Below are positions 7,451 through 32,230 of a DNA stretch of 40,634 bases, piece after piece. The notes below the pieces were generated by a model that was not told where the DNA came from, ran no database searches, and saw nothing but the letters and a program-made list of their open reading frames with translations. Both the position numbers and the translations under genes were made by a program. This DNA comes from an uncultured Prevotellaceae bacterium (lineage in GTDB: Bacteria > Bacteroidota > Bacteroidia > Bacteroidales > Bacteroidaceae), in NCBI GenBank assembly GCA_902786665.1, contig CADADN010000036.1, forward strand, positions 31,599 to 72,232, in the 5' to 3' direction. The stretch's first letter is position 1. Each line of letters starts with the position of its first letter.

Positions 7451-7520
7451 CAGGTAGTTTTAGGTAGATTTAGGTGGTTTTAGGTAGATTTAGGTGGTTT
7501 TAAGTTGATATAGGTCGTTG
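7451..7520. repeat. Tandem decamer array (taggtggttt-type), 7 units
   Basis: Seven consecutive units of exactly 10 nt run from 7451 to 7520. The first five are near identical (consensus taggtNgNtt, alternating taggtagatt and taggtggttt). The last two (taagttgata, taggtcgttg) are decayed. The array lies in a 454-nt gap (7241-7694) that otherwise holds the operon promoter and one hairpin, with no visible gene. Confidence 0.85.
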
Positions 7521-7529
7521 TAGAAAGAA

Positions 7530-7581
7530 TAGAAATCCTAGGAGGCTCCATACACATATTGGAACCACCTAGGACTTTCTA
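7530..7581 (-). terminator. Hairpin with CCTAGG arms, possible terminator of the 7695-8378 gene
   Basis: Arms cctaggaggctcc (7537-7549) and ggaaccacctagg (7561-7573) pair at 11 of 13 positions around an 11-nt loop. The stem can extend outward through tagaaat and actttcta with one bulge. Read on the minus strand it lies 114 nt past the upstream gene's stop and is followed by a modest T-rich run. The arm ccacctagg shares its core with the adjacent decamers, so the hairpin may derive from the same repeat. Confidence 0.45.
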
Positions 7582-7694
7582 TGATTGTTTGGTTGCTATT
7601 ACTTGACTACTGTTTTCTTGTCATTCAATAAAGTATCAAAATGGATCATATCATCCAAGAGTCACACCAAATCCTCTTCTTTAATCAGGCATTA

Positions 7695-8378
7695 TCATAA
7701 AGCAGCCTTCATAAGGGAGAATCCATAAAATGCAATCAGCGATGGAACAATGACAACAATTGCTAAAAGTCCCCATTCCATCAGTGTGACCTTTCGAAAC
7801 TCAGGAGGTATTGTTTCTTGTACAGATACAGAGACACTAAGAAAAGTGATCCAGATACCAAACCAGACGATACATCTAATAAGATTCATGGGGGTTGTAG
7901 AAACATCCTCTGCTGAATTTACAAATGTTCCCAATAAACCAATCACAAAGAAAATGATGATAATAGCCCGTGCCCAAAAGACAGCATTAGGCATTCTTCT
8001 AACAAAAGCATAAATAGTATAACAGGCCATTCCTAACAACACGACATCCAAAAAAATCAGCCCACCAAAAAACATAGAAATGCCTGGTACCTCCATTGAT
8101 TTCACTGAATCATACGAAGAATAGGTAGAAAACAGATCGATTAAAGGATTGATGAGGATGACGAAAAAGAAAAACTTATGCCATCCACCTATTGTGGTGT
8201 TTTCACGAAGCCATTCACTCGTATAAACGACTTCACCGTCAACCATCTCCAGACCGTCTTCAGTTTTCACGACGTCCGTTTGAGCAACATTAGAATCACC
8301 TGTTTCTTGGTTCTCCAAACTCTTCATATTGTCCGAATCAAGAATCTCATTTCTTCCATTTTCAATATTTTCATTCAT
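7695..8378 (-). CDS. Multi-pass membrane protein, DUF2569-like
   Basis: This 227-residue protein has a hydrophilic, acidic N-terminus (1-62) followed by five hydrophobic segments at about 67-87, 100-126, 133-153, 165-187 and 201-223. The opening of the membrane region, GGWHKFFFFVILINPL, resembles the start of DUF2569 proteins; this is pattern recognition, not a search result. No catalytic motif is visible. The coding sequence is clearly more AT-rich than the neighbouring carbohydrate genes, which may reflect recent acquisition or simply membrane-protein composition. The ATG at 8378 is the first in frame and gives a sensible start. It lies 85 nt downstream of the C10 protease gene. Function unknown. 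Confidence 0.75.
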   Translation of the reverse strand: MNENIENGRNEILDSDNMKSLENQETGDSNVAQTDVVKTEDGLEMVDGEVVYTSEWLRENTTIGGWHKFFFFVILINPLIDLFSTYSSYDSVKSMEVPGISMFFGGLIFLDVVLLGMACYTIYAFVRRMPNAVFWARAIIIIFFVIGLLGTFVNSAEDVSTTPMNLIRCIVWFGIWITFLSVSVSVQETIPPEFRKVTLMEWGLLAIVVIVPSLIAFYGFSLMKAAL

Positions 8379-8463
8379 AGCGTTATGTTTTTATGTGAAA
8401 AAATGAATTGCAGATAGCTAATCTTATCATACATATACAACTTCATAGGTCGATTCAAGTATT

Positions 8464-10752
8464 TTACCTGACGACCCTTTTCTTTCCATCGACGATGTAG
8501 ACGCCCTTTGGCAGGCCTTCGAGAGAAGAAGCCTTTCTCTTGACCAAGACCCCGGACGGTGTGTAGACATCGAAACAAGCAGGCTCATCGGCCACTATCA
8601 AATCAATGCCTACGGGATTTGCCTGTGCATTGACGGTGAACGAGTAGTTGTCGCTGATCCATTCCGTCGTTGTGGAACTGTGATAGGGATAGCCTTTCAA
8701 TGCAACCGTATAGGAATGTCCCATCTGCAAACCCTCAAAGCGGAATTCAAGGTCGACGGTCTTCTTCGCGCCGATATTCAGATATTGCGTCTTGTCGTAG
8801 GAGATGTTGTAGGTTTTCCCATCCTCGAAGATGTAGCAGACGATGGGCATGTAATATCCTTCCGTGTTGTTGTTCTTCACTTTCACCTTGAAGACAGCAT
8901 CCGTCTCGGGAACGATGCTGGCGGAGACCACCGAGAGATTGGATTTCGACGTCGGTGCGCTGACGATGTCGACCTCCCAAGGCCCGACGTTATTGGAGCC
9001 ATCCTCCTCGATGTCAATCCACAGCTTCCATTTTCCTGTGGATTTAGGTGTGAAGTACAGGGAGCTTTTCTCCTCACCTCCCACTTCCACGGGCAGGCAG
9101 ATTTGGTCGACGGCCTCTCCCTTGTCGTTGGTTTTGGAAGCGAAGAGATAGAACTCGTCACTGTACTCTTCCCCATTGTTGCTGATGGTGACAGCCACCT
9201 CCTGAGGTTGGTTAACAATTTTGTTGCCCACGCATTCCAACGAGTTGATAAGGAGCGACGCCCTTGGATGGTAGGTGATGCTTTTCACCTGCTTCCCGGA
9301 AAACTCCACTTGGTAGTATTTCTTTCTGTCGCCCATGACCCGGTACCAACTGCATCCTTCAAGGATGGAATATGGGTAGAAATTGTAAACGCCGTCATCG
9401 AGCGACATTGCGTCGAGGTCGAGAGAGTAGGTGATGGAATAGAATGGCTCCAAGAAGACACTCTCCTTTCTCACCTTGTAACTGTTGCTGTTGGCATCGG
9501 CCAACTGATATGCAAACCCATACAAGAAAGTACCGTCCAAACCCGTACGGTTGACATATTTTGCATTGAGGGTATGTCCCTCGCAAGAGAGGTCGGAGAG
9601 GGAGAGCGTGCGTCTCTCATCGGTCTGGCCCGTAGGCTTTTGAATCCCCACGACGGCGCCCTGGCTCATGGAGTACCCGCAGTTGGAGGTGCTGCTTCCG
9701 GTTCCGCCCCCCTTGGGGTTGAGCACTCCGAGTTTGAAGTAGCCATTGCAATAGCCACCCCATCCCCAGTTGATGTGGTAATATCCCTGACCGTCATAAC
9801 CATCACAGACGAAACAATGTCCACCACCCGGATTGGAGCCAGCATACACCACCGCCCGTCCGTTCTTGAGTTCGTTGTAGATGAGGTTGTCCCATCCCTC
9901 AGCAGAATAGTCGCTCCTTTTCTCAAACCGTGTGTTGACATCGTATCCGAAATAGTTGCGCAAAGCCATTGCCACATTATTAGTATATGCCGCAGAGCCA
10001 TCGAGAGCATAGTCCATCATCACGCCCTGGCCACAATAGCGCAACAGTTGCGCCACGGCCTTGCGCTGCCGTTCGGTCTGCCCTTCGTCGTAACGGTCAA
10101 CCATATTGTTCCAGTCGAATTTCACCTTGGAAAGTCCAGCCAATTGACCCAAAGTCTCATTCGCCTCATAAGCAGGGATTGACGTGGTGTAGTCTGTGGG
10201 CCACTTGTTGTAGCGCATCACCATCGCCATGGCCGTTGCCACACATCCTGCGACGCAATGCTTGCCATCGACGGTGGGACAAAGGTAGTTGTAGGCATCG
10301 CCGCTGCTGGTGGTCTCCCCTTGGTCCCACATCGCAGTGACCAGGTTGCCCAGCACGGGATGTACGTTCACCTTTGCAGGTTGTGCGCCTTCCTCCTGTC
10401 CCAGGACGGCGATTTCCTCAGAGTAACTTTTCAGCCAACTCTTCATGGTCTCCGGGATGAGGGCCTCGTCGAACTCGCAATCCATGCCATAGCCGAGGAT
10501 TTCCTCCGTGCGCTCGTCGCTGGATACGATGACGAATCCCTTCCCCTCCTTGGAATTGAACACATAAAGGGGAGCTTTTTCTGCGATGTTGGATGACAGG
10601 GACACCCTGGCTATACCCTTTTCCATAGGGATGCCCTTGTCTGCCATAAACATTTTTGCCTTCTGTTGCGCCGTCTGCAGAGAAACCTTTTGTGCAAAGG
10701 CATCAGCAGCGGTCACGAAAAGCAATAAAATCAACAAGTACTTGAATTTCAT
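8464..10752 (-). CDS. Secreted C10-family cysteine protease (streptopain/interpain-like)
   Basis: This is a 762-residue exoprotease. A signal peptide (MKFKYLLILLLFVTAADAFA) is followed by an inhibitory prodomain (about 22-130, with LYVFNSKEGKGFVIVSSDER typical of C10 proforms). The papain-fold catalytic domain (about 131-375) carries the nucleophile in GCVATAMAMVMRY (Cys170) and the catalytic His in GGGHCFVCDGYDG (His312), followed by YHINWGWGG. The remainder consists of beta-rich domains and a C-terminal tail (DVYTPSG...GVYIVDGKKRVV) like those of type IX-secreted or Por-tail proteins. Relatives include streptococcal SpeB and Prevotella intermedia interpain A. The natural target is unknown. 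The gene lies directly downstream of dense tandem repeats, and no clear TAnnTTTG promoter is visible within them. Confidence 0.93.
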   Translation of the reverse strand: MKFKYLLILLLFVTAADAFAQKVSLQTAQQKAKMFMADKGIPMEKGIARVSLSSNIAEKAPLYVFNSKEGKGFVIVSSDERTEEILGYGMDCEFDEALIPETMKSWLKSYSEEIAVLGQEEGAQPAKVNVHPVLGNLVTAMWDQGETTSSGDAYNYLCPTVDGKHCVAGCVATAMAMVMRYNKWPTDYTTSIPAYEANETLGQLAGLSKVKFDWNNMVDRYDEGQTERQRKAVAQLLRYCGQGVMMDYALDGSAAYTNNVAMALRNYFGYDVNTRFEKRSDYSAEGWDNLIYNELKNGRAVVYAGSNPGGGHCFVCDGYDGQGYYHINWGWGGYCNGYFKLGVLNPKGGGTGSSTSNCGYSMSQGAVVGIQKPTGQTDERRTLSLSDLSCEGHTLNAKYVNRTGLDGTFLYGFAYQLADANSNSYKVRKESVFLEPFYSITYSLDLDAMSLDDGVYNFYPYSILEGCSWYRVMGDRKKYYQVEFSGKQVKSITYHPRASLLINSLECVGNKIVNQPQEVAVTISNNGEEYSDEFYLFASKTNDKGEAVDQICLPVEVGGEEKSSLYFTPKSTGKWKLWIDIEEDGSNNVGPWEVDIVSAPTSKSNLSVVSASIVPETDAVFKVKVKNNNTEGYYMPIVCYIFEDGKTYNISYDKTQYLNIGAKKTVDLEFRFEGLQMGHSYTVALKGYPYHSSTTTEWISDNYSFTVNAQANPVGIDLIVADEPACFDVYTPSGVLVKRKASSLEGLPKGVYIVDGKKRVVR

Positions 10753-10775
10753 ATTTTTCAGGTTTTTGGTTATTA

Positions 10776-10953
10776 CAAGAGTTAAAGGGGAGGATTTTTT
10801 CAGGAGTTAAAGAGGAGTTCTTTTCAGGAGTTAAAGAGGAGTTCTTTTCAGGAGTTAAAGAGGAGTTCTTTTCAGGAGTTAAAGAGGAGTATTTTTTCAG
10901 GAGTTAAAGAGGAGTTAAAGAGGAGTTAAAGAGGAGTTAAAAGGGAGTTAAAG
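10776..10953. repeat. Tandem array: 24/25-mers then 11-mers (aggagttaaag core)
   Basis: Five copies of a 24-25-nt unit occupy 10776-10800, 10801-10824, 10825-10848, 10849-10872 and 10873-10897; the middle three are identical. From 10899 to 10953 the array changes to five 11-nt units, aggagttaaag, with the last two slightly changed. The 24-mer is one 11-mer aggagttaaag joined to a 13-mer variant, aggagttcttttc, so both share one ancestral unit. The array starts 24 nt upstream of the C10 protease ATG. Confidence 0.92.
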
Positions 10954-10964
10954 GGACATATGTT

Positions 10965-11089
10965 CACTTTTACCATACACTTTTACCATATTTACCATAC
11001 ACTTTTACCATACACTTTTACCATACACTTTTACCATACACTTTTACGGTCCACTTTACTGCCCACTTTTACGATTCACTTTTAGGTCC
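10965..11089. repeat. Tandem 13-mer array (cacttttaccata), 9 units plus a partial
   Basis: Near-identical 13-nt units cacttttaccata start at 10965, 10978, 11000, 11013 and 11026. A 9-nt partial lies at 10991-10999. Four decayed units (cacttttacggtc, cactttactgcc, cacttttacgatt, cacttttaggtcc) run to 11089. It abuts the previous array with an 11-nt separator and ends 22 nt before the stop codon of the next gene. Together the two arrays fill almost the whole 359-nt gap at 10753-11111, and no gene is seen there. Confidence 0.92.
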
Positions 11090-11111
11090 GGAGCTTGTGA
11101 TGGAGGCATTG

Positions 11112-11777
11112 TCATTGCTTCACTTTCGGGCACCGGGTGCGGATGTAATCATAGACGAAATCGAAATCCTCATCTTCCATATATACTTGGTTGTGATACA
11201 AAAGCCCGTTCACCTTGATGAGGTTGCGTTTCCTGTAGGGTTTCACCTTCCTCACTCTCGAGAAAGAGGAATAGATCGACGAATGGGTGGCGACGAGCAG
11301 CCCCTGTCCCACCCTTCCGGGACTGCCAGCCAGTAGTCCAGCCAGTATCATCACATTGCTCATGGCCTTGGCCTTTTCAAATTGCTTATCCAACTGGCGA
11401 TGCAGCACCCCTTCTTCGTCCATCTCGAAAATGACGCAATACTTTCCACCATATTTGTTCGCCACGATGTAATAGCCGATGAAGACACAGAGGAAAAAGA
11501 GTCCAAACATGAACAAAGCATATTTGCTTTTGTCCCACACATACTCCAACGACTTGCCTTCGAAGAGGGGAAGGAGCATCAACAAGCACGGAATCGCAAA
11601 GAGAACACCAAAAATCTTGAGTACAAGGAACAAGATGGTCGGGTTCTTATACATATCAAGTTCGTACACCCACCTGTATTTCCCATCAGGACAAAACTTG
11701 ATGTTCTCGGAGGTGTAAATCATCGAAGAATAAGCGGGTTTCGAATACTGACGACTTGTTGGATTTTTTTCTTTCAT
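11112..11777 (-). CDS. Conserved-looking membrane protein of unknown function
   Basis: This 221-residue protein has two membrane segments (about 48-70 and 87-106) that divide it into a short N-terminal part, starting with a Tyr/Arg-rich stretch (DGKYRWVYELDMYKNPT), and a larger cytosolic C-terminal part. The layout (short soluble strand, TM hairpin, then a beta-rich domain with VIFEMDEEGVLHRQL) recalls bacterial PH-like/YcxB-type membrane proteins, but I cannot assign a family. I chose the ATG at 11777; an in-frame TTG at 11795 would add six residues. The promoter at 11825-11856 would give a leader of about 40 nt to the ATG. The stop is followed directly by the 13-mer array. Confidence 0.7.
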   Translation of the reverse strand: MKEKNPTSRQYSKPAYSSMIYTSENIKFCPDGKYRWVYELDMYKNPTILFLVLKIFGVLFAIPCLLMLLPLFEGKSLEYVWDKSKYALFMFGLFFLCVFIGYYIVANKYGGKYCVIFEMDEEGVLHRQLDKQFEKAKAMSNVMILAGLLAGSPGRVGQGLLVATHSSIYSSFSRVRKVKPYRKRNLIKVNGLLYHNQVYMEDEDFDFVYDYIRTRCPKVKQ

Positions 11778-11824
11778 TTCAAGCTGATTACTCAAAGTGG
11801 ATTCAAGGTGTCACAATGACGCTA

Positions 11825-11856
11825 CAAATATAGGGAAAGATAAGCAAAATGCAAAA
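11825..11856 (-). promoter_or_regulatory. Promoter of the 11112-11777 membrane protein gene
   Basis: The minus strand carries -7 TATATTTG (11825-11832) and TTTTG (11852-11856) with a 19-nt spacer, matching the Bacteroidetes consensus. It is back-to-back with the GH36 promoter. Confidence 0.72.
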
Positions 11857-11872
11857 TAAATCGTATTCTTTT

Positions 11873-11903
11873 TTTGCGTTTTGCCTGGCTTTAGTTAATT
11901 TTG
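11873..11903 (+). promoter_or_regulatory. Promoter of the GH36 gene
   Basis: TTTG (11873-11876) and -7 TAATTTTG (11896-11903) are separated by 19 nt. The predicted start near 11909 excludes the upstream in-frame ATG at 11849 and supports translation from 11936. Confidence 0.75.
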
Positions 11904-11935
11904 CAAAGAAAACCGCTACATTAGAAAACCTACCA

Positions 11936-14125
11936 ATGAAAAGAAGCACCCTAGTATCCATCCTTGCAGCAGGCGCAAGCCTGTTGCACGCCGGTCCTGT
12001 CACCGTAGAGACCCGCAACATCTCACTTGTCATCAACGTCGAGAACGGCAGTTCACCCGAATATGTCTATTTCGGCCCCAAGCTCCAAGCCGGCGACATC
12101 GACCGCCTGCAAAAGCCCACCAACGGCCGCATGGACGCCTACCCCGCCTATGGGCTGAACCTCCCTTCCGAGGCCGCCCTCGCCATGCGCCATTCCGACG
12201 GCAACCTCTCAACCGCCCTTCAAGTCACCGGTGTGAGCACCGACAGCGAGGCACATGGCACACTGACCACCATCACCATGGCCGACCCCGCCTACCCCGT
12301 CGAAGTGAAGTTGCACTATCGGGCCTACAACGACGTGGACATGATAGAGACATGGACCGACATCACCAACAACGAGAAGGGCACGGTGACCCTCACCACC
12401 TTCGCCTCCGGCATGCTCCCCATCCGTCGCGGCGATGTATGGGTGAGCCACCTCCACGGTTCGTGGGGCAACGAGGGCCAGTTGACAGAAGAGCCCCTCC
12501 ACCCCGGCGTGCTGATGCTGAAGAACAAGGACGGTGTGCGCAACTCCCACACCGACCATGCCGAGGTGATGCTCTCCCTCGACGGCAAGGGTCGTGAGAA
12601 CGACGGTGCCGTCATCGGCGCCGCCCTTTGCTATTCCGGCAACTTCCGCATCAAGATAGACACCGACGACACCGACTATCACTACCTCTTCGCAGGCATC
12701 AACGAGGACAACTCAGAATACCACCTGAGAATGGGAGAGACCTTCACCACCCCACCCCTCGCCCTGACCTACAGCGAAGAAGGCCTCAGCGGCGCCTCAC
12801 GCAATTTCCACAAATGGGGTCGCAAATACAAGTTGCAGCATGGCAACAGGGAGCGCAAAATCCTGCTGAACAGCTGGGAGGGCGTCTATTTCGACATCAA
12901 CCAAGCCGGCATGGACCAGATGATGGCCGACATCGCCGGCATGGGTGGCGAACTTTTCGTGATGGACGACGGTTGGTTTGGCGACAAATACCCCCGCAAG
13001 ACCGACAACTCCTCGCTCGGCGACTGGGTAGTGGACAAGAACAAGCTTCCCGACGGCATAGAGGGGTTGTTGCGCGACGCCAAGAAGAACGGTGTGAAAT
13101 TCGGCATCTGGATTGAACCGGAGATGAGCAACACCGTAAGCGAACTCTATGAGAAGCACCCCGACTGGATAGTGAAAGCCCCTCGTCGCGACGCCGTGTT
13201 AGGTCGTGGCGGCACCCAGGTGGTGCTCGACCTCGCCAACCCGAAGGTGCAGGACTACGTCTTCAGCATCGTAGACAACCTACTCGCCAACTATCCAGAG
13301 ATTGACTACATCAAATGGGACGCCAACATGGCGTTGATGAACCACGGCAGCCAATATCTGAAAGCCGAGGACCAGAGCCACATGCATATAGAATACCACA
13401 AAGGTTTCGAGAAGGTATGCCAGCGTGTCCGTGCCAAATACCCCGACGTCACCATCCAGGCCTGCGCTAGCGGCGGCGGCCGTGCCAACTGGGGTGTCCT
13501 GCCGTATTTCGACGAGTTCTGGGTGAGCGACAACACCGACGCCCTCCAGCGCATCTACATGCAATGGGGCACGAGCTACTTCTTCCCCGCCATCGCCATG
13601 GCCTGCCACATCAGCGCCGTTCCCAACCACACCGTTTTCCGCACGACCACACTCAAATACCGCATCGACGTGGCCATGAGCGGCCGTTTGGGCATGGAAA
13701 TCCAGCCCAAGAACATGACAGATGAAGAAAAGACGCTGTGCAGGAAAGCCATCGCCGAATACAAGCAGATACGCCCCATCGTGCAGTTCGGCGACCTTTA
13801 CCGCCTTGTGTCGCCCTACGACCGTAAAGGCGTTGCCTCGCTGATGTATGTTGACGAGCAAAAAGAGAAGTCCGTCTTCTTCTGGTGGAAGACCGAGTCG
13901 TTCCAAAACGAGCACCTGGCACGTGTGAAGATGACCGGCCTGAACCCCAATAAAATATATAAGGTGCATGAGCTCAACCGAATCGACCTCCAGCCCCTGC
14001 CCTTTGAAGGGAAGAGTTTCAGTGGCGCATACCTGATGAGCCATGGTCTTGAAATCCCCCGCAGCAACGATGTGGAATGGAGCAAGAAGAGCGACTGGAG
14101 CAGCAGAGTGTTGCTGCTGGAATGA
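11936..14125 (+). CDS. GH36 alpha-galactosidase
   Basis: This is a 729-residue alpha-galactosidase of the GH36 family, which removes terminal alpha-1,6-galactose from oligosaccharides such as raffinose-type sugars and galactomannan fragments. The start at 11936 begins a short signal-like peptide (MKRSTLVSILAAGASLLHAG), suggesting periplasmic location; an ATG at 11849 lies upstream of the promoter. The N-terminal beta-supersandwich (to about 300) is followed by a TIM barrel with MDDGWFGDK, FGIWIEPEM, the nucleophile motif IKWDAN (Asp462), CASGGGR and the acid/base motif SDNTDA (Asp532), all intact. The gene is noticeably GC-rich compared with the region just before it. It is a single gene, not in the esterase operon, but may act on the same galactosylated substrate. 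Confidence 0.95.
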   Translation: MKRSTLVSILAAGASLLHAGPVTVETRNISLVINVENGSSPEYVYFGPKLQAGDIDRLQKPTNGRMDAYPAYGLNLPSEAALAMRHSDGNLSTALQVTGVSTDSEAHGTLTTITMADPAYPVEVKLHYRAYNDVDMIETWTDITNNEKGTVTLTTFASGMLPIRRGDVWVSHLHGSWGNEGQLTEEPLHPGVLMLKNKDGVRNSHTDHAEVMLSLDGKGRENDGAVIGAALCYSGNFRIKIDTDDTDYHYLFAGINEDNSEYHLRMGETFTTPPLALTYSEEGLSGASRNFHKWGRKYKLQHGNRERKILLNSWEGVYFDINQAGMDQMMADIAGMGGELFVMDDGWFGDKYPRKTDNSSLGDWVVDKNKLPDGIEGLLRDAKKNGVKFGIWIEPEMSNTVSELYEKHPDWIVKAPRRDAVLGRGGTQVVLDLANPKVQDYVFSIVDNLLANYPEIDYIKWDANMALMNHGSQYLKAEDQSHMHIEYHKGFEKVCQRVRAKYPDVTIQACASGGGRANWGVLPYFDEFWVSDNTDALQRIYMQWGTSYFFPAIAMACHISAVPNHTVFRTTTLKYRIDVAMSGRLGMEIQPKNMTDEEKTLCRKAIAEYKQIRPIVQFGDLYRLVSPYDRKGVASLMYVDEQKEKSVFFWWKTESFQNEHLARVKMTGLNPNKIYKVHELNRIDLQPLPFEGKSFSGAYLMSHGLEIPRSNDVEWSKKSDWSSRVLLLE

Positions 14126-14165
14126 GGCCTGGTTCAAAAAAAAGAAAAAAAAAGAGAGATATTTT

Positions 14166-14196
14166 TTTGGTGATTGGCAGAAAAGTGTTACCTTTG
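14166..14196 (+). promoter_or_regulatory. Promoter of tRNA-Val
   Basis: TTTG ending at 14169 and -7 TACCTTTG (14189-14196) with a 19-nt spacer lie just upstream of the tRNA. The transcript start would be near 14202, about 12 nt before the mature 5' end. Confidence 0.75.
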
Positions 14197-14213
14197 CAGC
14201 GCAAAAACTAGAA

Positions 14214-14288
14214 AGGAGCATAGCTCAGTTGGTTTAGAGCGCTTCAGTCACATTGAAGAGGTCATCGGTTCGAGTCCGATTGTTCCTA
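14214..14288 (+). tRNA. tRNA-Val (anticodon CAC)
   Basis: The cloverleaf folds fully. The acceptor arms are AGGAGCA (14214-14220) and TGTTCCT (14281-14287) with one G-T wobble. The D stem is GCTC/GAGC, the anticodon stem CTTCA/TGAAG with loop GTCACAT, and the T arm ATCGG-TTCGAGT-CCGAT. U33 precedes the anticodon CAC (14249-14251), which reads the Val codon GUG. The discriminator is A and no CCA is encoded. The acceptor and D arm look like those of the Bacteroidetes tRNA-Val(UAC), supporting the identity. A G at position 32 facing T at 38 is slightly unusual. Confidence 0.93.
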
Positions 14289-14295
14289 CAGAGAG

Positions 14296-14321
14296 GCCAA
14301 GCAAGGATGCTTGGCTTTTTT
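14296..14321 (+). terminator. Rho-independent terminator of tRNA-Val
   Basis: Perfect 8-bp stem gccaagca/tgcttggc with a 4-nt loop (agga), followed by six T's, 7 nt after the tRNA end. Confidence 0.9.
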
Positions 14322-14347
14322 GTTTCAACGAGCAAAAGTTGGCAATA

Positions 14348-14878: not shown

Positions 14879-14890
14879 ACCAAGCACACC

Positions 14891-25248: not shown

Positions 25249-25250
25249 TA

Positions 25251-25727: not shown

Positions 25728-25750
25728 AGCTTTCTAGCTAGAAGATACAA

Positions 25751-25778
25751 GGAGAGGCTGCAGCCTCTCCTTTTTTTT
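25751..25778 (+). terminator. Rho-independent terminator of the TPR-ribH operon
   Basis: A 20-nt perfect palindrome (ggagaggctg/cagcctctcc) is followed by eight T's, 23 nt after the ribH stop. Confidence 0.92.
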
Positions 25779-25782
25779 GTAT

Positions 25783-25827
25783 TATAGTCTCTATAGTTTT
25801 TATAGTCTCTATAGTTTTTATAGACTC
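25783..25827. repeat. Tandem 9-mer array (tatagtctc/tatagtttt), 5 units
   Basis: Five units of exactly 9 nt alternate tatagtctc, tatagtttt, tatagtctc, tatagtttt, tatagactc. The array begins 4 nt after the T-tract of the ribH terminator. Confidence 0.9.
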
Positions 25828-25836
25828 CTTGAAGCT

Positions 25837-25939
25837 CCTATCCTCCTAGGCCCCCTATAGCTTCCTAGGCCTCCTATTTCCTCCCAGGCCTCCTATTTCC
25901 TCCTAGGCCTCCTATTTCCTCCCAGGCCTCCTATAATTC
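25837..25939. repeat. Tandem 19-mer array with cctagg/cctat half-units
   Basis: A 19-nt period (aggcctcctatttcctccc) repeats with unit starts at 25867, 25886, 25905 and 25924. Each unit is two half-units of about 9 and 10 nt that begin CCT (cctaggcct or cccaggcct, then cctatttcct). Decayed half-units extend left to about 25837. The array ends just before the facing terminator of the MFS gene. Confidence 0.88.
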
Positions 25940-25950
25940 CCATAAACCAT

Positions 25951-25992
25951 AAAAATCCTGCCCTCTCCCATAATAGCAAGGGAAAGGGCAGG
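25951..25992 (-). terminator. Terminator of the MFS transporter gene
   Basis: On the minus strand an 8-bp outer stem (cctgccct/agggcagg) plus an inner ccc/ggg pair, with a 10-nt loop, is followed by ATTTTT. It lies about 35 nt after the MFS stop at 26027 and faces the ribH terminator. Confidence 0.75.
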
Positions 25993-26026
25993 AAAGATAT
26001 CTATTGATGTGATGCCAAGCGAGGTA

Positions 26027-27499: not shown

Positions 27500-27535
27500 A
27501 TTATAAGTGATTAGTTAAAATCTTCTTTCAAAATG

Positions 27536-27543
27536 CAAAGATA
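27536..27543 (-). promoter_or_regulatory. -7 element for the MFS transporter gene
   Basis: TATCTTTG on the minus strand, 36 nt upstream of the ATG at 27499. No TTTG is visible at the expected -33 position. Confidence 0.55.
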
Positions 27544-27617
27544 CCTAAAAAAGGCGTCATTATTGCTTTTTTATTGCTTTTTTTTCGAAAAACGTATTTT
27601 TTGCCTTGAATAGAAGG

Positions 27618-27726
27618 CCAAGGACGCCAGGAAATACCAGGAATTGCTTGGAAAACTAGAAGCCCTAAGAAAACTAGGAAGACTAGAAATCCTAGGAAAA
27701 CTAGAAACCCTAACCCCCTAGCAACC
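27618..27726. repeat. Tandem 9-mer array (ctagRaNNN), about 12 units
   Basis: Seven consecutive exact 9-nt units run from 27647 to 27709 (cttggaaaa, ctagaagcc, ctaagaaaa, ctaggaaga, ctagaaatc, ctaggaaaa, ctagaaacc). They are flanked by looser 8-10-nt units on both sides (ccaggaaata and ccaaggacg on the left, ctagcaacc on the right). The array starts 13 nt after the stop of the murF-alr gene (which ends at 27740 on the minus strand) and stops before the MFS promoter. Confidence 0.85.
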
Positions 27727-27739
27727 CTGAATGCCTGGC

Positions 27740-30226
27740 TCAATCTTGGAAATAGACCCTCTTGACCCTGTTGCTGACCGCGGTGAGTATTTCATAAGGT
27801 ATGGTTTGCAGGGTGTCTGAGAGAACCGTCACGGGGAGGTGGTCGCCGAATATTTCCACAGAATCACCCTCCTTGCAATCGATGCCGGTGACATCTATCA
27901 TGGCAACGTCCATGCAGATGTTTCCCACATATGGCGCCTTTTTCCCATTGACGAGGCAATAGCACCTGCCTCTTCCCAATCCCCTGTTGAGTCCGTCAGC
28001 ATAGCCGATGGGGATTGCAGCGATGACACTGTCTCTTGTGAGCACGCCCTTCCTGCTATAACCTACGGTGTCCTCCTTGGGCACCTCCCTCATCTGCAGG
28101 ATGGTGGTTTTCAATGTACACACATTGTTCAAGATGCGGTTGTCGCGGCTGCTGATGCCATAAAGCCCCAATCCGAGCCTGCACATGTCGTGCTGCCTTT
28201 CCGGGAAATGCTCAATGCCGGCACTGTTGTCGATATGCCGTATGATTTTATGTTGGAAAGCAGCTTGCAGTTTGTCGCTTGCCTCGATGAAACGCTTGTA
28301 TTGCAAATCGGAGAATCGGTCGAAGTCGTCGCTGTCCGAGCCTACGAAATGGGAAAACACCGACCTTGGTATAACCGCATCTTGTTTGAGCAAGACCTCC
28401 AACAGCTTATCGATGTCCTTCTGCGGGTCAAAGCCAAGCCGATGCATACCCGTGTCGAGTTTGATGTGTACGGGATATTTTGAAATGCCTTCTTTCTCGG
28501 CTGCATTCACCAAAGCATCGAGCAAACGGAAGCTATACACTTCAGGTTCAAGTTTGTAGTCGAAAAGGGTTTTAAAAGACGACATCTCCGGATTCATCAC
28601 CATGATGTTTCCCGTGATGCCATTTCTTCTCAAAGTCACCCCCTCATCCACGACGGCGACGGCGAGGTAGTCCACCCTTTGGTCTTGCAATGTCTTTGCT
28701 ATTTCCACGGACCCGGCACCATATCCGTCGGCCTTGATCATACATGTGATTTTGGTGGAAGGCTTGAGGAAAGAGCGGTAGTAATTGAGGTTGTCCACCA
28801 AAGCATTGAGATTGACTTCCAAGATGGTTTCATGCACTTTCCTTACGAGCAGGTCTGTAAGGAGGTCGAAATTGAACTGTCTTGCCCCCTTGAGCAGGAT
28901 TACTTCGTCTCTCAGCGTAGTGAGCAAGCCGCTTTCCACAAACTCCTCCGTGCTTCGGAAGAAAGCCTTGTCGGTTATTTGTATGATGTCTTTCCAATTG
29001 GTTATCACAGGCCCTATGCCAATGAAACGCTCCACCCCCCTGCTGAGGGCAAGGTCGGAGACGGTAGTGTAGAGCACCTCTTCGGGCATCCCGCTTTGGT
29101 AGATGTCGCTAAGCACCAAAGTGCGTCGCCTTCCTTTATGGTCGGGCCTTCGGGTCATGAAATCGAGCGCAATGCCCAATGAGTTGATGTCGGAATTGTA
29201 TGAGTCGTTGATGAGCGTGCATCCATGCTGTCCCTCCTTCACCTCGAGCCTCATGGCCACCGGTTCGAGTTTTCGCATGCGTTGCTGCAGCTGTTGGACG
29301 GTTATCCCCAGTTGCATGGCGACCGCGGCAGCCGTGATGGAGTTCACCACTGAGGCATCGTCGATGAATGGTATTTTGTAATGGCCTTTTTGTTTTTTGA
29401 AAGAGAAAGAGATGGTGGTTTCATCGTTTTGTTTCTCAATTTTTTCCACATACATTGCCGCGTCGGGATTAGAATGCGAGCATTTGATGACACACACCTT
29501 GTAACCCTTTTCATCCACCATCTTGTCGACCATCCTTTCCACCAGAGGTTCCTCTGTGTTGATTACGACACACTTGGTGTTGTGGAAGAGTTTCATCTTT
29601 TCCTTACATTTCTGCTCCAACGACTCGAAATGCTCTTGGTGAGCCGTTCCGATGTATGTCAGCACTCCAATGGTGGGTTGTATGATGTCGCACAACCTTT
29701 CCATCTCTCCAGGCATGCTGATGCCCGCTTCGAAAAGAGCCACCTGTGAATGTTTGTCGAGCAGGAGCACAGAGAGAGGCACCCCCACCTGTGAGTTGTA
29801 GCTTTTAGGCGACCTGGTGACAGTCATGGAAGGTGAGAGGAGGTGATAAAGCCATTCTTTCACCACCGTTTTCCCATTACTTCCCGTAATTCCAACAACG
29901 GGTATGGAGAAAGCGTCACGATGTCGTTCAGCCAGTCTTTGGAGTGCCACAAGGGAGTTTTTCACTCTAAGGAAATTGGCATCTGGAAACCTTCCCTCCC
30001 ATCTCTCAGGCAATTGCTGGACGACAAAGTTTCTCACTCCCCTGTCATAAAGGTCTTCCACATACTTGTGCCCATCGTTCCTGTCAGTCTTGATGGCGAA
30101 GAAGAGTGTGCTTTCAGCGAAACATAGCGACCTGCTGTCGGTCAGCACCCACTGAATGTCTGCTTTGGCAGCACCGAATCGATGCGCTCCAATGAGCGTC
30201 ACCACTTGCTCTATGCTATAATTCAT
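27740..30226 (-). CDS. Bifunctional MurF - alanine racemase
   Basis: This 828-residue fusion supplies D-alanine and ligates D-Ala-D-Ala to the UDP-MurNAc-tripeptide in peptidoglycan synthesis. The N-terminal half (about 1-455) is a Mur ligase with the ATP motif GITGSNGKTVVKEW (about 113-126) and substrate motifs such as DSYNSD. The C-terminal half (about 460-828) is a fold-type III alanine racemase with PLP Lys498 in MIKADGYGAGS and the catalytic-Tyr/terminal-domain block VGYSRKGVLTRDSV...IPIGYADGLNRG. The same fusion is known throughout Bacteroidetes. It lies 25 nt after the 5'-nucleotidase gene, in one operon. Both halves look complete. Confidence 0.95.
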   Translation of the reverse strand: MNYSIEQVVTLIGAHRFGAAKADIQWVLTDSRSLCFAESTLFFAIKTDRNDGHKYVEDLYDRGVRNFVVQQLPERWEGRFPDANFLRVKNSLVALQRLAERHRDAFSIPVVGITGSNGKTVVKEWLYHLLSPSMTVTRSPKSYNSQVGVPLSVLLLDKHSQVALFEAGISMPGEMERLCDIIQPTIGVLTYIGTAHQEHFESLEQKCKEKMKLFHNTKCVVINTEEPLVERMVDKMVDEKGYKVCVIKCSHSNPDAAMYVEKIEKQNDETTISFSFKKQKGHYKIPFIDDASVVNSITAAAVAMQLGITVQQLQQRMRKLEPVAMRLEVKEGQHGCTLINDSYNSDINSLGIALDFMTRRPDHKGRRRTLVLSDIYQSGMPEEVLYTTVSDLALSRGVERFIGIGPVITNWKDIIQITDKAFFRSTEEFVESGLLTTLRDEVILLKGARQFNFDLLTDLLVRKVHETILEVNLNALVDNLNYYRSFLKPSTKITCMIKADGYGAGSVEIAKTLQDQRVDYLAVAVVDEGVTLRRNGITGNIMVMNPEMSSFKTLFDYKLEPEVYSFRLLDALVNAAEKEGISKYPVHIKLDTGMHRLGFDPQKDIDKLLEVLLKQDAVIPRSVFSHFVGSDSDDFDRFSDLQYKRFIEASDKLQAAFQHKIIRHIDNSAGIEHFPERQHDMCRLGLGLYGISSRDNRILNNVCTLKTTILQMREVPKEDTVGYSRKGVLTRDSVIAAIPIGYADGLNRGLGRGRCYCLVNGKKAPYVGNICMDVAMIDVTGIDCKEGDSVEIFGDHLPVTVLSDTLQTIPYEILTAVSNRVKRVYFQD

Positions 30227-30251
30227 TTTCCCTTGTTTGTAGTTATCTATG

Positions 30252-31676
30252 TCATTTGACGAACGTCACGCGTTTTGTCCCGAGATAGTCGACAAAACCT
30301 TTCTTCTCCAAGAAACGCATGAGCATATCTGAACAGACGAGCCCTGTGTCACGCCCCTGGTCAGAGCGAGGGGAATCACAAATGGCAGCCACGTAACTGT
30401 TTGTCACCACTTTGTATTTTTTCTTCATATTGAGTTTCTTGCCATCGAGTGTGAAGAGCTTGATGTCGGCAATCCGTGTGGTGTCGTTCTTGTCGAACCT
30501 CACCTCGCACTTTGCTCCTCCGATGAAAGGGAAGTAGCCCTCGCTTGTTTCATAGCATGAAACCAGCATTTTCTTGAACTCTTCTCCTGTGATGTTCATT
30601 TCTATGCAAGGGTTGCCAAAGGGGTCGAGTCTGAGCACGTCGGAAACGGTGAAAGGCCCGGCTTCCTTCTCAGAGATGCGCACACCTCCATAGTTTTGCA
30701 AGGAAAGGTCTGCCCCTGTCTCGCTGATGATGGCATCACACATCAGGCACCCCAATTCCTCCAGTTCCTTGAACTCATTGGCAGTGGCGAGTTGCCTATG
30801 AAACTCCGGGTTGTTGTTGAAGAAGTCAACCATGGCTTGTGCCACAGCGTTTTTCCGTGGATATCCTTCCACTTGTATGTTCTCGGCTTTCTTGTCCACC
30901 ACTTTGCCATTCTCCATCTTGACGGTGATGTGGGTGACACGCTTGAGTTTGTTGACATTTTGCGTGACAAGTACTCCGTTGTGCATTTCTCCCCCCTTGA
31001 GTTGTGTATGCGTATGCCCTCCGATGATGAGGTCGAAGTCAGGGAATTGCTGTGCCATCTTCACGTCATCCTCATATCCAATATGCGAGAGGAGGATGAA
31101 GAGGTCCACCTTGTCGCGCAGCCAAAGATATTGCTTGATGGTCTCTTCTACAGGTGAGAAGTGCATTCCCACCAAATAATCAGGATGAGCATCTGGAATG
31201 TCATGCGCTCCCAATTGCACCACGCCCAGCACCCCTATTTTCACACCTTCAATCTCAAAGATTTTATAAGGCAGCGGATGCACGTTGAGCTCATCATCTG
31301 CTTTCATATTGGCACAAATGTAAGGGAAGTTGGATGTGGCGAGCACGGTGGAGAGTCCTTTCTGCTTGTTGTCGAACTCATGGTTTCCGAAAGCCGAAGC
31401 ATCAAACCCGATGAAATTCATTAGTGCCGTCATGGGATAAGTGGGTATGGAATAAAGGTCGTTGACAGGGTTTCCCGTCCTGTTGTCCCCGGCGGAGAAG
31501 ACAAGTAGTTGGTTGTCGATGCCTCTCAAGCTATCAGCGATGGCAGCAAGCATGGGCATATTGTCGATGTTGGCGTGCAAGTCGTTCCCCGAGAGGATGT
31601 GTATCTCCCTGGTTTGTGCTTGCATGGTGGCAGCCATCATGACAACTGCCACCAATAAGGCGAAAGTCTTTCTCAT
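30252..31676 (-). CDS. Periplasmic 5'-nucleotidase (UshA-like metallophosphoesterase)
   Basis: This 474-residue secreted enzyme hydrolyses nucleotides, releasing nucleosides and phosphate. It has a signal peptide (MRKTFALLVAVVMMAATMQA), then a calcineurin-like metallophosphatase domain with metal ligands in SGNDLHANID (Asp32, His34), FSAGDNRTGN (Asp64), GNHEFDN (Asn98, His99), HIGYEDD and GGHTHTQL. A C-terminal 5'-nucleotidase domain follows (about 285-474, including SLQNYGGVRI and VVTNSYVAA). It overlaps the preceding small gene by 4 nt (ATGA) and precedes murF-alr by 25 nt. Confidence 0.92.
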   Translation of the reverse strand: MRKTFALLVAVVMMAATMQAQTREIHILSGNDLHANIDNMPMLAAIADSLRGIDNQLLVFSAGDNRTGNPVNDLYSIPTYPMTALMNFIGFDASAFGNHEFDNKQKGLSTVLATSNFPYICANMKADDELNVHPLPYKIFEIEGVKIGVLGVVQLGAHDIPDAHPDYLVGMHFSPVEETIKQYLWLRDKVDLFILLSHIGYEDDVKMAQQFPDFDLIIGGHTHTQLKGGEMHNGVLVTQNVNKLKRVTHITVKMENGKVVDKKAENIQVEGYPRKNAVAQAMVDFFNNNPEFHRQLATANEFKELEELGCLMCDAIISETGADLSLQNYGGVRISEKEAGPFTVSDVLRLDPFGNPCIEMNITGEEFKKMLVSCYETSEGYFPFIGGAKCEVRFDKNDTTRIADIKLFTLDGKKLNMKKKYKVVTNSYVAAICDSPRSDQGRDTGLVCSDMLMRFLEKKGFVDYLGTKRVTFVK

Positions 31677-31882
31677 GGTTGTTTGTTGATTTCGTAGGTG
31701 ATGGCTGCGTCTGCCGTGAGTGGTGCATCGAGGTCGATCTCATGTCCCCATTGGTCGTAGACGACCACCCATGACAAAATGTCTCTACTGATGCCGTTTT
31801 TGACAAAAAGTCTGTTCATGGCATCCCTGACTGTGGCGCCATGGAAGAGTACGACTTCCTGATTGTTTACCGTGATTCTCAT
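31673..31882 (-). CDS. Small beta-grasp-like protein of unknown function
   Basis: This 69-residue protein begins MRITVNNQEVVLFHGATVRDAM, which has the strand-turn-strand-helix look of ubiquitin-like (ThiS/MoaD) proteins, and ends with a strand (AAITYEINKQP). The C-terminal Gly-Gly needed for sulfur-carrier activity is absent, so thiocarboxylate chemistry is unlikely. Start and stop are supported by the promoter at 31968-31999 and by the 4-nt overlap with the nucleotidase gene. It is the first gene of the operon. Function unknown; a small regulator or partner of the nucleotidase is speculative. Confidence 0.75.
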   Translation of the reverse strand: MRITVNNQEVVLFHGATVRDAMNRLFVKNGISRDILSWVVVYDQWGHEIDLDAPLTADAAITYEINKQP

Positions 31883-31967
31883 AAGGATGGGTTGAATAGG
31901 TGTTGTTTTGCATTGGGCGGCACAAGAAAACCATACCCTTTTACTGGTGTCTCCTCATACCGATATG

Positions 31968-31999
31968 CAAAAGTAGTGATTTATTCGGAGGAGGCAAAA
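31968..31999 (-). promoter_or_regulatory. Promoter of the small protein/5'-nucleotidase/murF-alr operon
   Basis: TTTTG (31995-31999) and -7 TACTTTTG (31968-31975) on the minus strand have a 19-nt spacer. The leader to the ATG at 31882 would be about 80 nt and contains no obvious hairpin. The rest of the gap (32000-32130) holds no visible gene or repeat. Confidence 0.75.
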
Positions 32000-32130
32000 T
32001 AATTCATGAAAAACTTGCATTTCGCGTCTTGAAAAGGGATGCTGGCGGCTTATCTAAAAGGCAATGCAAACAAACAGCCAAACCCGCAACATGCATGAAG
32101 GCCATATATGCGAGTTTGGCTCTAGCATGA

Positions 32131-32230
32131 GGATATAGGAAGTGCTAGGAAGTGCTAGGAAGTGCTAGGAAATTCTAGGAAGTGCTAGGATATCCTAGGA
32201 CCTCCTAGAACTTCCTATTACGTCCTATAC
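32131..32230. repeat. Tandem decamer array (agtgctagga), 10 units with an orientation switch
   Basis: Ten units, each exactly 10 nt, run from 32131 to 32230. The first six or seven carry ctagga at their right end (agtgctagga four times). From about 32194 the units carry the reverse complement (tcctag, tcctag, tccta, tccta). The switch point is the 14-bp palindrome ctaggatatcctag (32185-32198), so a transcript can fold the two halves onto each other. The right-most unit contains the stop codon of the LutC-like gene. Confidence 0.92.

Follow-up and report, generated by a model that had tools for sequence, protein, structure and literature searches.

Prevotella genomes carry CTAG-palindrome arrays at 9- or 10-nt spacing that are candidate docking sites for a DNA-binding protein

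Repeat arrays behind genes in the window

The window, a 40,634-nt stretch of DNA from an uncultured Prevotellaceae bacterium, holds short tandem arrays in four of its gaps between genes (Table 1). These arrays had been proposed from the letters of the sequence, and a tandem-repeat finder (TRF), from which their periods and borders are taken, recovered all four. Gene calls and Pfam domains agreed with the proposal that each lies 3′ of a gene: the genes 5′ of the arrays encode RibH (PF00885), a Mur ligase–alanine racemase fusion, a LUD-domain (LutC-like) protein and a DUF2569-like protein, the last of which matched DUF2569 below the Pfam cut-off (22.8 versus 26.5 bits). Rfam covariance models applied to the window at the gathering threshold detected a single tRNA (14214–14288) and matched none of the arrays.

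Table 1 Repeat features of the window
Feature	Position	Strand	Description
Tandem array	7452–7523	.	Period 10/20/30 (TRF), TAGGT-based, AGGTAGTTTT/AGGTGGTTTT, CTAG absent; 3′ of DUF2569-like gene (7695–8378, minus), upstream of SASA/CBM6 esterase gene (5459–7240, minus)
Inverted repeat	7529–7582	-	CCTAGG in each arm; 21-bp minus-strand hairpin, terminator-like, behind DUF2569-like gene
Tandem array	25782–25827	.	Period 9/18, TATAGTCTC/TATAGTTTT; convergent gap between ribH and MFS gene
Tandem array	25841–25934	.	Period 19 (10+9), TCCTCCTAGGCCTCCTATT; same convergent ribH/MFS gap
Tandem array	27650–27712	.	Period 9/18/27; 3′ of murF-alr gene (27740–30226, minus)
Tandem array	32136–32208	.	Period 10 (TRF 10/20/30), TAGGAAGTGC; 3′ of lutC-like gene
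10-nt register prolonged	32209–32227	-	Reaches and includes stop codon of lutC-like gene
Long hairpin	32120–32235	-	Whole lutC 3′ region; exception among arrays

The four arrays had also been treated as one family with a CTAG core, a view that suits two of the gaps well. Runs of at least three exact CTAG at 9 or 10 nt occur in two of the four gaps, behind murF-alr (four CTAG, spacing 9, 27674–27704) and behind the lutC-like gene (seven CTAG, spacing 10, 32145–32208), and the gap at locus L009 that is orthologous to the former carries seven CTAG at 9 nt. The first TAG of this 10-nt register doubles as the stop codon of the lutC-like gene (the reverse complement of 32225–32227). The arrays at 7452 and 25782 are look-alikes; the ribH–MFS gap is composed of TATAG 9/18-mers followed by 19-mers that contain CCTAGG/CCTATT and three CTAG.

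Abundance, spacing and placement of CTAG arrays

The original prediction had named two outcomes that would speak against it, gap arrays no commoner than composition predicts and identity with a known REP family, and neither was observed. In a sample of the source genome made up of the window and 40 fixed stretches of 20 kb (840,634 bp, of which 174,301 bp are gaps), 12 gap arrays were found, including two from the window; 100 first-order resamplings gave 0.01 on average and never more than 1. Across the whole source genome, the pattern CTAGN{5,6}CTAGN{5,6}CTAG matched 506 times, compared with 7 matches for a GATC control. When 2.37 Mb of DNA from this genome and named relatives was considered, CTAG formed 21 arrays from 588 sites, and the other 15 palindromic 4-mers formed 0–7 arrays from 3,278–11,881 sites; CTAG is otherwise avoided in the source genome (O/E 0.21). 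Distances to the next CTAG, drawn from its fixed stretches and from loci picked by pattern match, fell at 9 nt (n = 82) and 10 nt (n = 82) versus 8 nt (n = 2) and 11 nt (n = 1), in keeping with the predicted spacing constraint of about one helical turn; longer distances of 18 nt (n = 10) and 20 nt (n = 8) were also seen.

The further idea that spacing rather than exact sequence is constrained did not hold, because CTAG itself is kept while the spacers change, as is apparent from triples, from an edge test and from MurF sites (below). At period 9 in the gaps of the source genome, 162 CTAG sites yielded 21 overlapping triples, 14 of which have dissimilar neighbouring spacers, and the runner-up 4-mer yielded 6 triples from 3,089 sites. 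The edge test, which asks whether the unit just past the end of an array is a three-of-four CTAG and is free of CTAG ascertainment, was positive in phase at 26 of 52 ends in the source genome, 10 of 28 in G147, 4 of 12 in G008, 3 of 8 in G515 and 6 of 18 in the named relatives, against 0–3% out of phase; it was negative in G466 (0/10) and weak in G402 (1/8). The invariant element of the arrays is CTAG at 9- or 10-nt spacing. Spacer identity in the source genome was 0.61 between adjacent units versus 0.40 between arrays (0.48 versus 0.29 in G147), as expected from the local homogeneity and divergence between loci that had been noticed in the window. Different arrays of the source genome have 84 distinct spacers in common against 26 expected, and either inter-locus copying or some longer consensus therefore plays a part; in G147 the count was 15 against 9.4 expected (s.d. 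3.1). Local amplification or gene-conversion-like homogenization, the suggested origin, agrees with the homogeneity in the source genome but is not the whole story, as MurF states differ by substitution.

All 26 arrays of the source genome lie outside called genes; 23 have a stop codon no more than 90 nt away, which bears out the predicted 3′ placement, and two are in divergent gaps. The description of the arrays as intergenic holds for this genome but not for G147, in which 10 of the 14 arrays examined are inside called genes. Relatives carry in-frame arrays within MurF, IspG, Tex, MutS2 and MazG, and in protein linkers such arrays mostly read as NCT-AGN-NNN codons. Because intragenic CTAG arrays stay out of the TAG frame, stop-codon traps were rejected as the general reason for the arrays. 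Four of the six G008 arrays lie between co-directional genes, 9–60 nt ahead of the next start, and all six hold more CCTAG than CTAGG on the sense strand. Flanks in the source genome are roughly mirror-like, since of 158 sites 98 have T at position −2 and 131 have A at position +2, and orientation relative to the gene is mixed by raw count (13 versus 8 arrays and 2 ties); 10-nt AGGA units near stops were antisense in nine cases versus sense in two (P = 0.065).

Within the genus, the triple pattern of CTAG at 9 or 10 nt was found in 175 of 299 genomes; across the order, a stricter form was found in 10 of 247, the source genome among them. Members of one genus can differ, as do G466 with 18 matches and G380 with none. 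No array was present in the fixed stretches taken from G147, G065 and G009 (270 kb in total), though these genomes have 214–225 matches; G147 arrays were studied at loci centred on pattern matches, not in fixed stretches. In G100, 20 of 22 arrays lie on one 708-kb contig (P = 4 × 10−10), and all 85 matches of G010 fall in C3:1.21–1.94 Mb, 73 of them within 1.5996–1.7032 Mb; clustering in one replicon or domain was absent from G281. The G010 cluster has a GC content slightly above the rest (0.42–0.44 versus 0.38–0.42), and a foreign island was rejected on its native tetranucleotide signature (0.856 and 0.816; all stretches, 0.75–0.91). As to the G010 origin and terminus, GC skew of the sampled stretches was noisy and dnaA was not found in them. 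A mobile element may have seeded the arrays: in G010 only 58 nt separate the longest array from a ParA-like gene, and in G008 an array of 13 CTAG adjoins an HU-HIG gene. A motif scan of eight other sets, however, found no ParA-like gene near any array, and its one hit near an array was a tyrosine-recombinase-like gene in G281, at a distance of 2 kb.

Gene association was assessed in a hand-picked sample of 17 array-rich and 18 array-free genomes, the array-rich ones being less complete. Y1_Tnp (E up to 0.001) showed no association with arrays (10/17 array-rich versus 9/18 array-free genomes), Vsr was weakly inverse (8/17 versus 15/18; P = 0.035), and no candidate binding protein was found in these two families. 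The prediction that the arrays are neither REP nor CRISPR elements agrees with the lack of Rfam matches in the window and with their build: they are phased 4-mers with no 20–40-nt palindromic element, and Y1_Tnp, whose gene would accompany REP elements with a RAYT transposase, is distributed as above. CRISPRs have long conserved repeats and spacers of approximately 30 nt; here the conserved part is 4 nt and the spacer 5–6 nt.

Synonymous sites in MurF and IspG

At the degenerate sites of NCN|AGN in MurF loops, the T that makes CTAG is present in 31 of 35 cases, against 0 of 26 at the same degenerate sites in the remainder of murF-alr and 21 of 188 in coding DNA of the same loci outside runs of three CTAG. 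The rows of MurF, like those of IspG, had been selected for containing two or more CTAG, and related rows cannot count as independent. Four-fold sites of murF-alr differ by 0.33–0.58 in 27 of 28 species pairs, that is, they are about half diverged. The MurF loop has the same length in L057, L072 and L082, which carry an array, and in L035, L050 and L053, which are array-less; substitutions, not extra copies, therefore separate the two states. In L057 and L072 the spacer codons TTA and GAT occupy matching positions, as though inherited. In the IspG linker, CTAG-array species and heptamer-array species use the identical site, and in TCAATTN species the linker length is unchanged relative to plain orthologues. 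Retention at synonymous sites and tolerant placement, the marks of a genome-wide selected motif of the Chi or DUS kind, were thus both found, with MurF and IspG rows picked by their CTAG content. We infer that selection acts on the arrays at the nucleic-acid level.

Viral contigs contain at least 120 stretches with the CTAG pattern. Among the viral matches listed, 80 loci hold 97 period-9 runs of at least four CTAG, whose neighbouring spacers are similar in 82 and dissimilar in 15, and the one run-rich viral contig read closely (L236 and L260) represents a TPSITR protein repeat; a viral origin of the arrays was rejected on these observations. A protein-level repeat (collagen-like or TPS) with free synonymous codons was also rejected: the arrays of the source genome are noncoding, and codon use at the degenerate site is mixed in the viral TPSITR repeats (T in 269 of 440).

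Candidate docking sites and competing explanations

Prevotella genomes carry CTAG-palindrome arrays with fixed 9- or 10-nt spacing and variable spacers. We propose, at a probability of roughly 0.45, that these are candidate docking sites for a cooperative, palindrome-binding DNA protein with a role in handling chromosomal DNA. A sequence-specific, probably dimeric protein would bind each CTAG palindrome, and dimers would pack side by side along the helix, about one turn each, so that spacing and core would matter and spacers would not. The arrays occupy places that tolerate their letters, namely behind stops, in gaps and in in-frame linkers; they would grow partly by duplication, perhaps also by copying between loci, and would be maintained, or locally created or erased, through point substitution. 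The patchy distribution and the replicon or domain clustering in two genomes suggest a role in partition, architecture or self-marking of chromosomal DNA rather than in single-gene regulation. Should the arrays prove to be docking sites, this large genus of the gut and rumen, which is poorly understood, would have a DNA code running through the whole genome, and the sequence of essential enzymes would be bent so that a four-letter word stays at helical spacing; some Ser/Pro-rich linkers of their proteins would be explained, the reader protein would be traceable, and there would be a direct handle on nucleoid organization or segregation in Bacteroidetes.

Chi, KOPS, matS, DNA uptake sequences and HIP1 are short single-word motifs maintained genome-wide; CTAG is likewise enriched genome-wide and put where coding and spacing tolerate it, but as phased tandem arrays rather than single words. 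MetJ (8-bp met boxes), the omega repressor (7-bp heptads) and the ParR/ParG centromeres rely on boxes bound by side-by-side dimers; CTAG arrays resemble them in having short boxes at roughly helical spacing, with side-by-side binding putative here, and differ in numbering dozens per genome rather than one or few sites per replicon. In the available text of MacGregor 2015 (PMC4679880), TAACTGA heptamer direct repeats are described from Beggiatoaceae, Cyanobacteria and five Bacteroidetes; like CTAG arrays, they are short direct repeats found at numerous loci of a genome, for the most part between genes and next to a start or stop codon but with some in ORFs, and sporadic, apparently horizontal, in distribution. 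According to the same text, TAACTGA is, however, an exact non-palindromic 7-mer without spacer, in 2–6 copies in the main genome and as many as 43 elsewhere, usually placed directly before starts, at the ORF periphery, whereas CTAG arrays are a 4-bp palindrome at 9 or 10 nt with variable spacers, occur in frame in conserved proteins and show signs of synonymous constraint; identity with TAACTGA was rejected on this array unit. Long simple sequence repeats (LSSRs) of prokaryotes (Mrazek et al. 2007, as summarized in the available text of PMC4679880) share with CTAG arrays short units (5–11 nt), phylogenetic scatter and units that inside genes are a multiple of three, but repeat the whole unit, whereas CTAG arrays conserve the core and vary the spacers, although spacers in the source genome are in part homogeneous. 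In the accessible parts of the open-access literature, including PMC4060949, no account of such phased arrays was found for Prevotella.

The selected feature might instead be a hairpin or cruciform, terminator-like or REP-like, and three window regions clearly out-fold shuffles: the lutC 3′ region (32120–32235; −54 kcal/mol, z −6.9), whose halves have opposite unit orientation and therefore fold back into one hairpin, segment 7440–7589 (−28.8 kcal/mol, z −4.45 against dinucleotide shuffles) and 27610–27730 (z −3.26; z −2.03 for 25783–25929). As CTAG is self-complementary, however, any CTAG array is expected to out-fold shuffles, and with random spacer flips as the control none of 56 arrays of at least four CTAG folded better than z −1.5. 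Mean z was positive in all six groups (+2.46 in the source genome), as expected of direct repeats, since flips make pairs out of like spacers; with spacers reordered, group means ranged from −0.43 to 1.35. RNA folding, one of the roles first suggested, thus lost its support, and hairpin selection was rejected for the array class, for which it is now highly improbable; compared with intrinsic terminators, in which a stable hairpin behind a gene precedes a U-run, the window arrays have hairpins, but this is not a property of the class, and a local terminator is possible at lutC and 7440–7589. A role in RNA without folding, in which CUAG repeats bind an RRM-, Csp- or ring-type protein that sets message stability or termination, is decidedly unlikely. 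It would fit the crowding behind stop codons and rarity in divergent gaps, the G008 arrays ahead of starts with their sense-strand CCTAG, the strand-specific heptamer arrays of the source genome and the post-transcriptional role proposed for TAACTGA in the available text of MacGregor (PMC4679880); moreover, the arrays lie mostly in transcribed DNA, which counts against docking sites on DNA. The perfect DNA palindrome of the core, the mirrored flanks and mixed orientation in the source genome, the folding controls and the arrays in coding sequences of housekeeping genes point the other way, and these features (the coding placement aside) lead us to favour the DNA over the RNA level.

Functionless LSSRs (minisatellites) born by slippage and copied between loci would be tolerated because DNA behind genes and in linkers is little constrained, and the local homogeneity and shared spacers of the source genome, its several array families and the occurrence of such repeats in bacteria (available text of PMC4679880) are all compatible with them. 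We nevertheless consider this explanation unlikely: CTAG is retained where spacers differ and at degenerate sites despite large divergence, MurF changes without a change in length, a single core motif recurs across the genus, and CTAG is avoided elsewhere. Alternatively, a CTAG-recognizing enzyme might cut the arrays and 9-bp cassettes be shuffled or converted between them, CTAG being kept because it is the site of the enzyme. Spacer sharing in the source genome and CTAG avoidance outside arrays would suit such self-copying, but spacers are hardly shared in G147, the TTA and GAT codons of L057 and L072 are placed as by descent and no such enzyme is known; cassette shuffling, unsupported in G147 and with some sharing in the source genome, was rejected, and self-copying appears very unlikely. 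Even a self-copying repeat would be unusual in preserving no more than a 4-bp core, in changing by substitution and in lying in frame.

Besides CTAG arrays, the source genome has several unrelated array families with periods from 7 to 12. Its heptamer arrays are stranded and anchored at stop codons (20 of 21 sense), and one DNA-level explanation therefore fails to cover all families. Of 299 genomes, 188 contain TCAATTN triples, and G208 has 234 TCAATTN matches and no CTAG array. A bolder reading, which we regard as doubtful, is that Bacteroidales lineages write their own phased-motif dialect (CTAG at 9/10, TCAATTN at 7, GTTCAAA at 7) into shared tolerant places; the arrays would then be where a putative chromosome-marking or partition system docks, one that evolves fast, is exchanged horizontally and re-codes genome sequence to suit the word it recognizes, and that in some species keeps to a single replicon or domain. 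GTTCAAA every 7 nt was seen in one linker only.

Tandem arrays in the window and its source genome

Reading and scanning of the four gaps of the window behind a DUF2569-like gene, ribH, murF-alr and a lutC-like gene revealed tandem arrays in all of them, at nearly the coordinates claimed in the original prediction and, as it had stated, always 3′ of a gene. It had described one family on a CTAG/CCTA core; two of the gaps hold strict CTAG arrays (runs of CTAG spaced 9 or 10 nt), and the other two are built on TAGGT and on TATAG plus CCTAGG/CCTATT. The stop codon of the lutC-like gene doubles as the opening TAG of the 10-nt register in its gap. The observation was largely right and its interpretation half right.

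Tandem arrays in the four gaps (window coordinates)
Position	Array	Spacing (nt)
7452-7523	TAGGT	
25782-25934	TATAG plus CCTAGG/CCTATT	
27650-27712	strict CTAG	9, exact
32136-32208	strict CTAG	10, exact

Another intergenic cluster, of GGAGTTAAAG 11/24-mers followed by CACTTTTACCATA 13-mers, lies at 10779-11084 of the window. In a locus of a relative (L010; 22 kb with a single CTAG), the ribH/MFS gap carries an unrelated CTATAGAGG 9-mer array where the window has 9/19-mers.

The window belongs to contig C36 of its source genome (G000), which comprises 197 contigs and 5.73 Mb versus mostly 2–4 Mb for genomes of the genus; given its 9.67% contamination, this assembly probably has more than one strain or species mixed in. 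Prevotella sp. bins of sheep omasum and buffalo rumen are the closest named relatives, at 93% and 92%, respectively, in MurF-Alr. In the window and the first 20 fixed stretches of the source genome (440,634 bp), CTAG pairs in gaps were virtually confined to distances of 9, 10 and their multiples; coding DNA of the same 440,634 bp contained no CTAG pairs up to 31 nt apart. The window plus 40 stretches (840,634 bp) contained 12 gap arrays of at least three CTAG, two of them inside the window, versus a mean of 0.01 expected from 100 first-order resamplings. CTAG was the scarcest palindromic 4-mer in 2.37 Mb of own and named-relative DNA (588 sites) and formed the most arrays there (21, versus 0–7 for the 15 others). 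Across the whole source genome, the pattern CTAGN{5,6}CTAGN{5,6}CTAG had 506 matches versus 7 for the control word GATC.

A position near stop codons was borne out beyond the window: of 26 own arrays, 12 of which came from the window and fixed stretches and 14 from hit-selected loci, 23 lay at most 90 nt from a stop codon, none was inside a called gene, and 2 were in divergent gaps, a class that accounts for 21% of gap length. Genes were called with a custom codon-usage method, which overlooked some of them, such as the DUF2569-like one, and trimmed starts.

Constraint on core and spacing

Both the spacing and the core of the arrays are conserved. At period 9 in own gaps, CTAG led all 4-mers by far in triples whose neighbouring spacers are dissimilar: from 162 sites it made 14 such cases among 21 overlapping triples, and AAAA, next in rank, made 6 from 3,089 sites. 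Distances to the next CTAG in own DNA, a sample that takes in loci chosen by hits, were 9 nt (82 cases), 10 (82), 8 (2), 11 (1), 18 (10) and 20 (8). One unit beyond the array end, which by definition is not CTAG, a 3-of-4 match was seen at 26 of 52 own ends and in genomes G147 (10 of 28), G008 (4 of 12), G515 (3 of 8) and the named relatives (6 of 18), versus 0–3% out of phase; this signal was absent in G402 (1 of 8) and G466 (0 of 10). Where the original prediction had placed the constraint on spacing rather than on exact sequence, the spacing is indeed held at 9 or 10 nt, but CTAG is constrained too.

The local homogeneity and divergence between loci that had been proposed were recovered: spacer likeness was 0.61 for adjacent spacers versus 0.40 for different arrays in own DNA, and 0.48 versus 0.29 in G147. 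Because adjacent spacers resemble each other more, local duplication contributes to some extent. Distinct spacers common to several arrays numbered 84 versus 26 expected in own DNA, and 15 versus 9.4 in G147. Local amplification is, however, not the whole account, since substitution shapes the arrays as well. In MurF-Alr of rumen relatives, 8 of 78 rows carry at least two CTAG at 9-nt phase in the same loop, and its length is equal in array-bearing (L057, L072, L082) and array-less (L035, L050, L053) rows, which argues for substitution and not amplification alone.

At NCN-AGN sites, the degenerate codon positions where T makes CTAG, T was present in 31 of 35 cases in the MurF loop, 0 of 26 in the rest of murF-alr and 21 of 188 in coding DNA outside runs of three CTAG of the same loci; the eight MurF rows were selected for at least two CTAG and are kin-related, so that a binomial p calls for caution. 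Four-fold sites elsewhere in the gene diverged by 0.33–0.58 in 27 of 28 species pairs (0.09 for L062/L069). The tree places L035 among array-bearing rows, a position of modest support, and in the alignment three of its four loop phases are one change short of CTAG. This divergence, together with the loss in L035, speaks for a long-term constraint that would act on the MurF-loop CTAGs. In the IspG linker region, 9 of 18 orthologues placed by motif (30 loci) had 2–6 CTAG, not all in one phase, and were mostly two residues longer than plain ones; T occupied 32 of 39 linker NCN-AGN sites versus 2 of 12 elsewhere in the gene, in rows chosen by CTAG. A constraint at the level of the nucleic acid itself is very probable.

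Distribution and genomic surroundings

The distribution of CTAG arrays is patchy, as would be expected of a trait that is passed on horizontally or lost with ease, since zero-match genomes recur in genus and order and G466 has a congener, G380, with zero matches to the four-CTAG pattern at 9 nt. The three-CTAG pattern was matched by 175 of the 299 genomes of the genus; many had zero matches and some more than 100. A stricter search of the order, for four CTAG at 9 nt, had 10 positives among 247 genomes, the own genome included: G515 had 68 matches, G402 22 and G466 18, three genomes of one genus 1–2 each, and three genomes 3–4, mostly homogeneous.

Within genomes, 20 of 22 arrays of G100 (two contigs, 99% complete; our grouping of 38 hits) lay on a 708-kb contig that is 26% of the genome. 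All 85 matches of G010 fell in C3:1.21-1.94 Mb, 73 of them within 104 kb; the initial 1.2 Mb and both remaining contigs had none; 20 kb sampled from the dense stretch had native tetranucleotide composition, slightly raised GC (0.42) and ordinary housekeeping genes. Arrays of G281 were scattered over the chromosome without domain clustering. The longest G010 array seen (L459:11480-11699; 17 CTAG in 165 bp) borders the densest array run and follows a ParA-like ATPase gene at a distance of 58 nt. Four of six G008 arrays lie between co-directional genes with the next start 9–60 nt downstream, and a 13-CTAG array (L347:11178-11301) lies immediately upstream of an HU-HIG DNA-binding protein gene, which adjoins DUF6371/AAA_25 genes. 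No ParA- or HU-like neighbour was found in the other sets scanned.

In G147, 10 of 14 arrays taken from the first matches listed were inside called genes; nine of these read NCT-AGN-NNN and the tenth CTA-GNN-NNN, the two frames in which CTAG gives no TAG stop. Pfam assigned the array-bearing proteins to GcpE/IspG, Tex, MutS2, MazG, SprA, GH43, GH25, a TPR protein and an MFS transporter; a further host is, by its sequence, a LysM-like protein. The encoded linkers follow (P/S/T/A)-(S/R)-x and lie outside or between Pfam matches or at splits of a match (Tex_YqgF, MazG, MFS), and that of IspG within the GcpE match. Another array, in L218, codes for a signal-peptide-like stretch.

A non-array CTAG observed/expected ratio below 0.05 was seen in 37 of 63 array-less loci (at least 12 kb) versus 1 of 9 array-bearing ones among named loci L009–L088. 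Vsr genes were scarcer in array-rich (8 of 17) than in array-free genomes (15 of 18).

Candidate function and other repeat families

Single regions of the window fold well (lutC 3′ region, −54 kcal/mol, z −6.9; 7440-7589, z −4.45; 27610-27730, −3.26; 25783-25929, −2.03). Spacer pairing was nevertheless ruled out as a kept feature of the class, because 56 arrays folded no better than their flipped or reordered controls: none was below z −1.5 against flipped-spacer versions (own mean +2.46), and reordering gave group mean z from −0.43 to 1.35.

The best explanation, to which we give a probability of about 0.45, is that CTAG arrays are putative docking arrays for a cooperative DNA-binding protein. 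With neither a clear strand preference nor clear folding, a palindrome at 9–10 nt points to a double-stranded DNA target that one dimer per palindrome would occupy. Orientation relative to the gene was mixed in own arrays (CTAGG-rich 13, CCTAG-rich 8, ties 2; counts only), the purine-rich strand was sense in 15 versus 7, and 10-nt AGGA units near stops were antisense in 9 versus 2 (p 0.065). Own flanks were roughly mirrored (T at −2 in 98 and A at +2 in 131 of 158 sites), the pooled flank table being symmetric by construction. That the arrays act at the RNA level is unlikely; in all six G008 arrays the sense strand is biased towards CCTAG, which shifts the balance slightly from the DNA reading towards such a role. 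MetJ, omega, ParG, Chi, KOPS, matS and HIP1 are functional parallels only, with no membership by binding implied.

The closest published match found is the TAACTGA repeats, which are short, sporadic, partly from Bacteroidetes and adjacent to starts or stops (PMC4679880, which also summarises LSSR work by Mrazek et al.). The parts of that study consulted contain neither the palindromic core with variable spacers seen in CTAG arrays nor a synonymous-constraint test as run here on MurF and IspG.

Depending on species, the IspG linker carries CTAG9, TCAATTN7 or GTTCAAA7 arrays (L367-L396; 18 of 30 loci readable). In the alignment, G270, G280 and G307 have TCAATTN-like heptamers at the same length as plain orthologues such as G020, and G233 has GTTCAAA heptamers. 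Triples of TCAATTN were present in 188 of the 299 genomes of the genus; TCAATTN versus CTAG matches were 234 versus 0 in G208, 192 versus 0 in G157 and 118 versus 1 in G270, G007 and G195 have both, and the reversed control was mostly 0, with up to 42 in one genome. In the own genome, 20 of 21 near-stop heptamer TTGA (ATTGAAN) arrays were sense, 15 of these 20 beginning −18 to +6 nt from the stop, and GGAGTTAAAGG 11-mers were sense in 11 of 13 cases near stops and antisense in 10 of 11 near starts. These stranded families may have a reason other than that of the CTAG arrays. ATTGAAN arrays that begin at or near the stop give TGA in rotating frames (for example, L118:13573, L136:18647 and L143:99).
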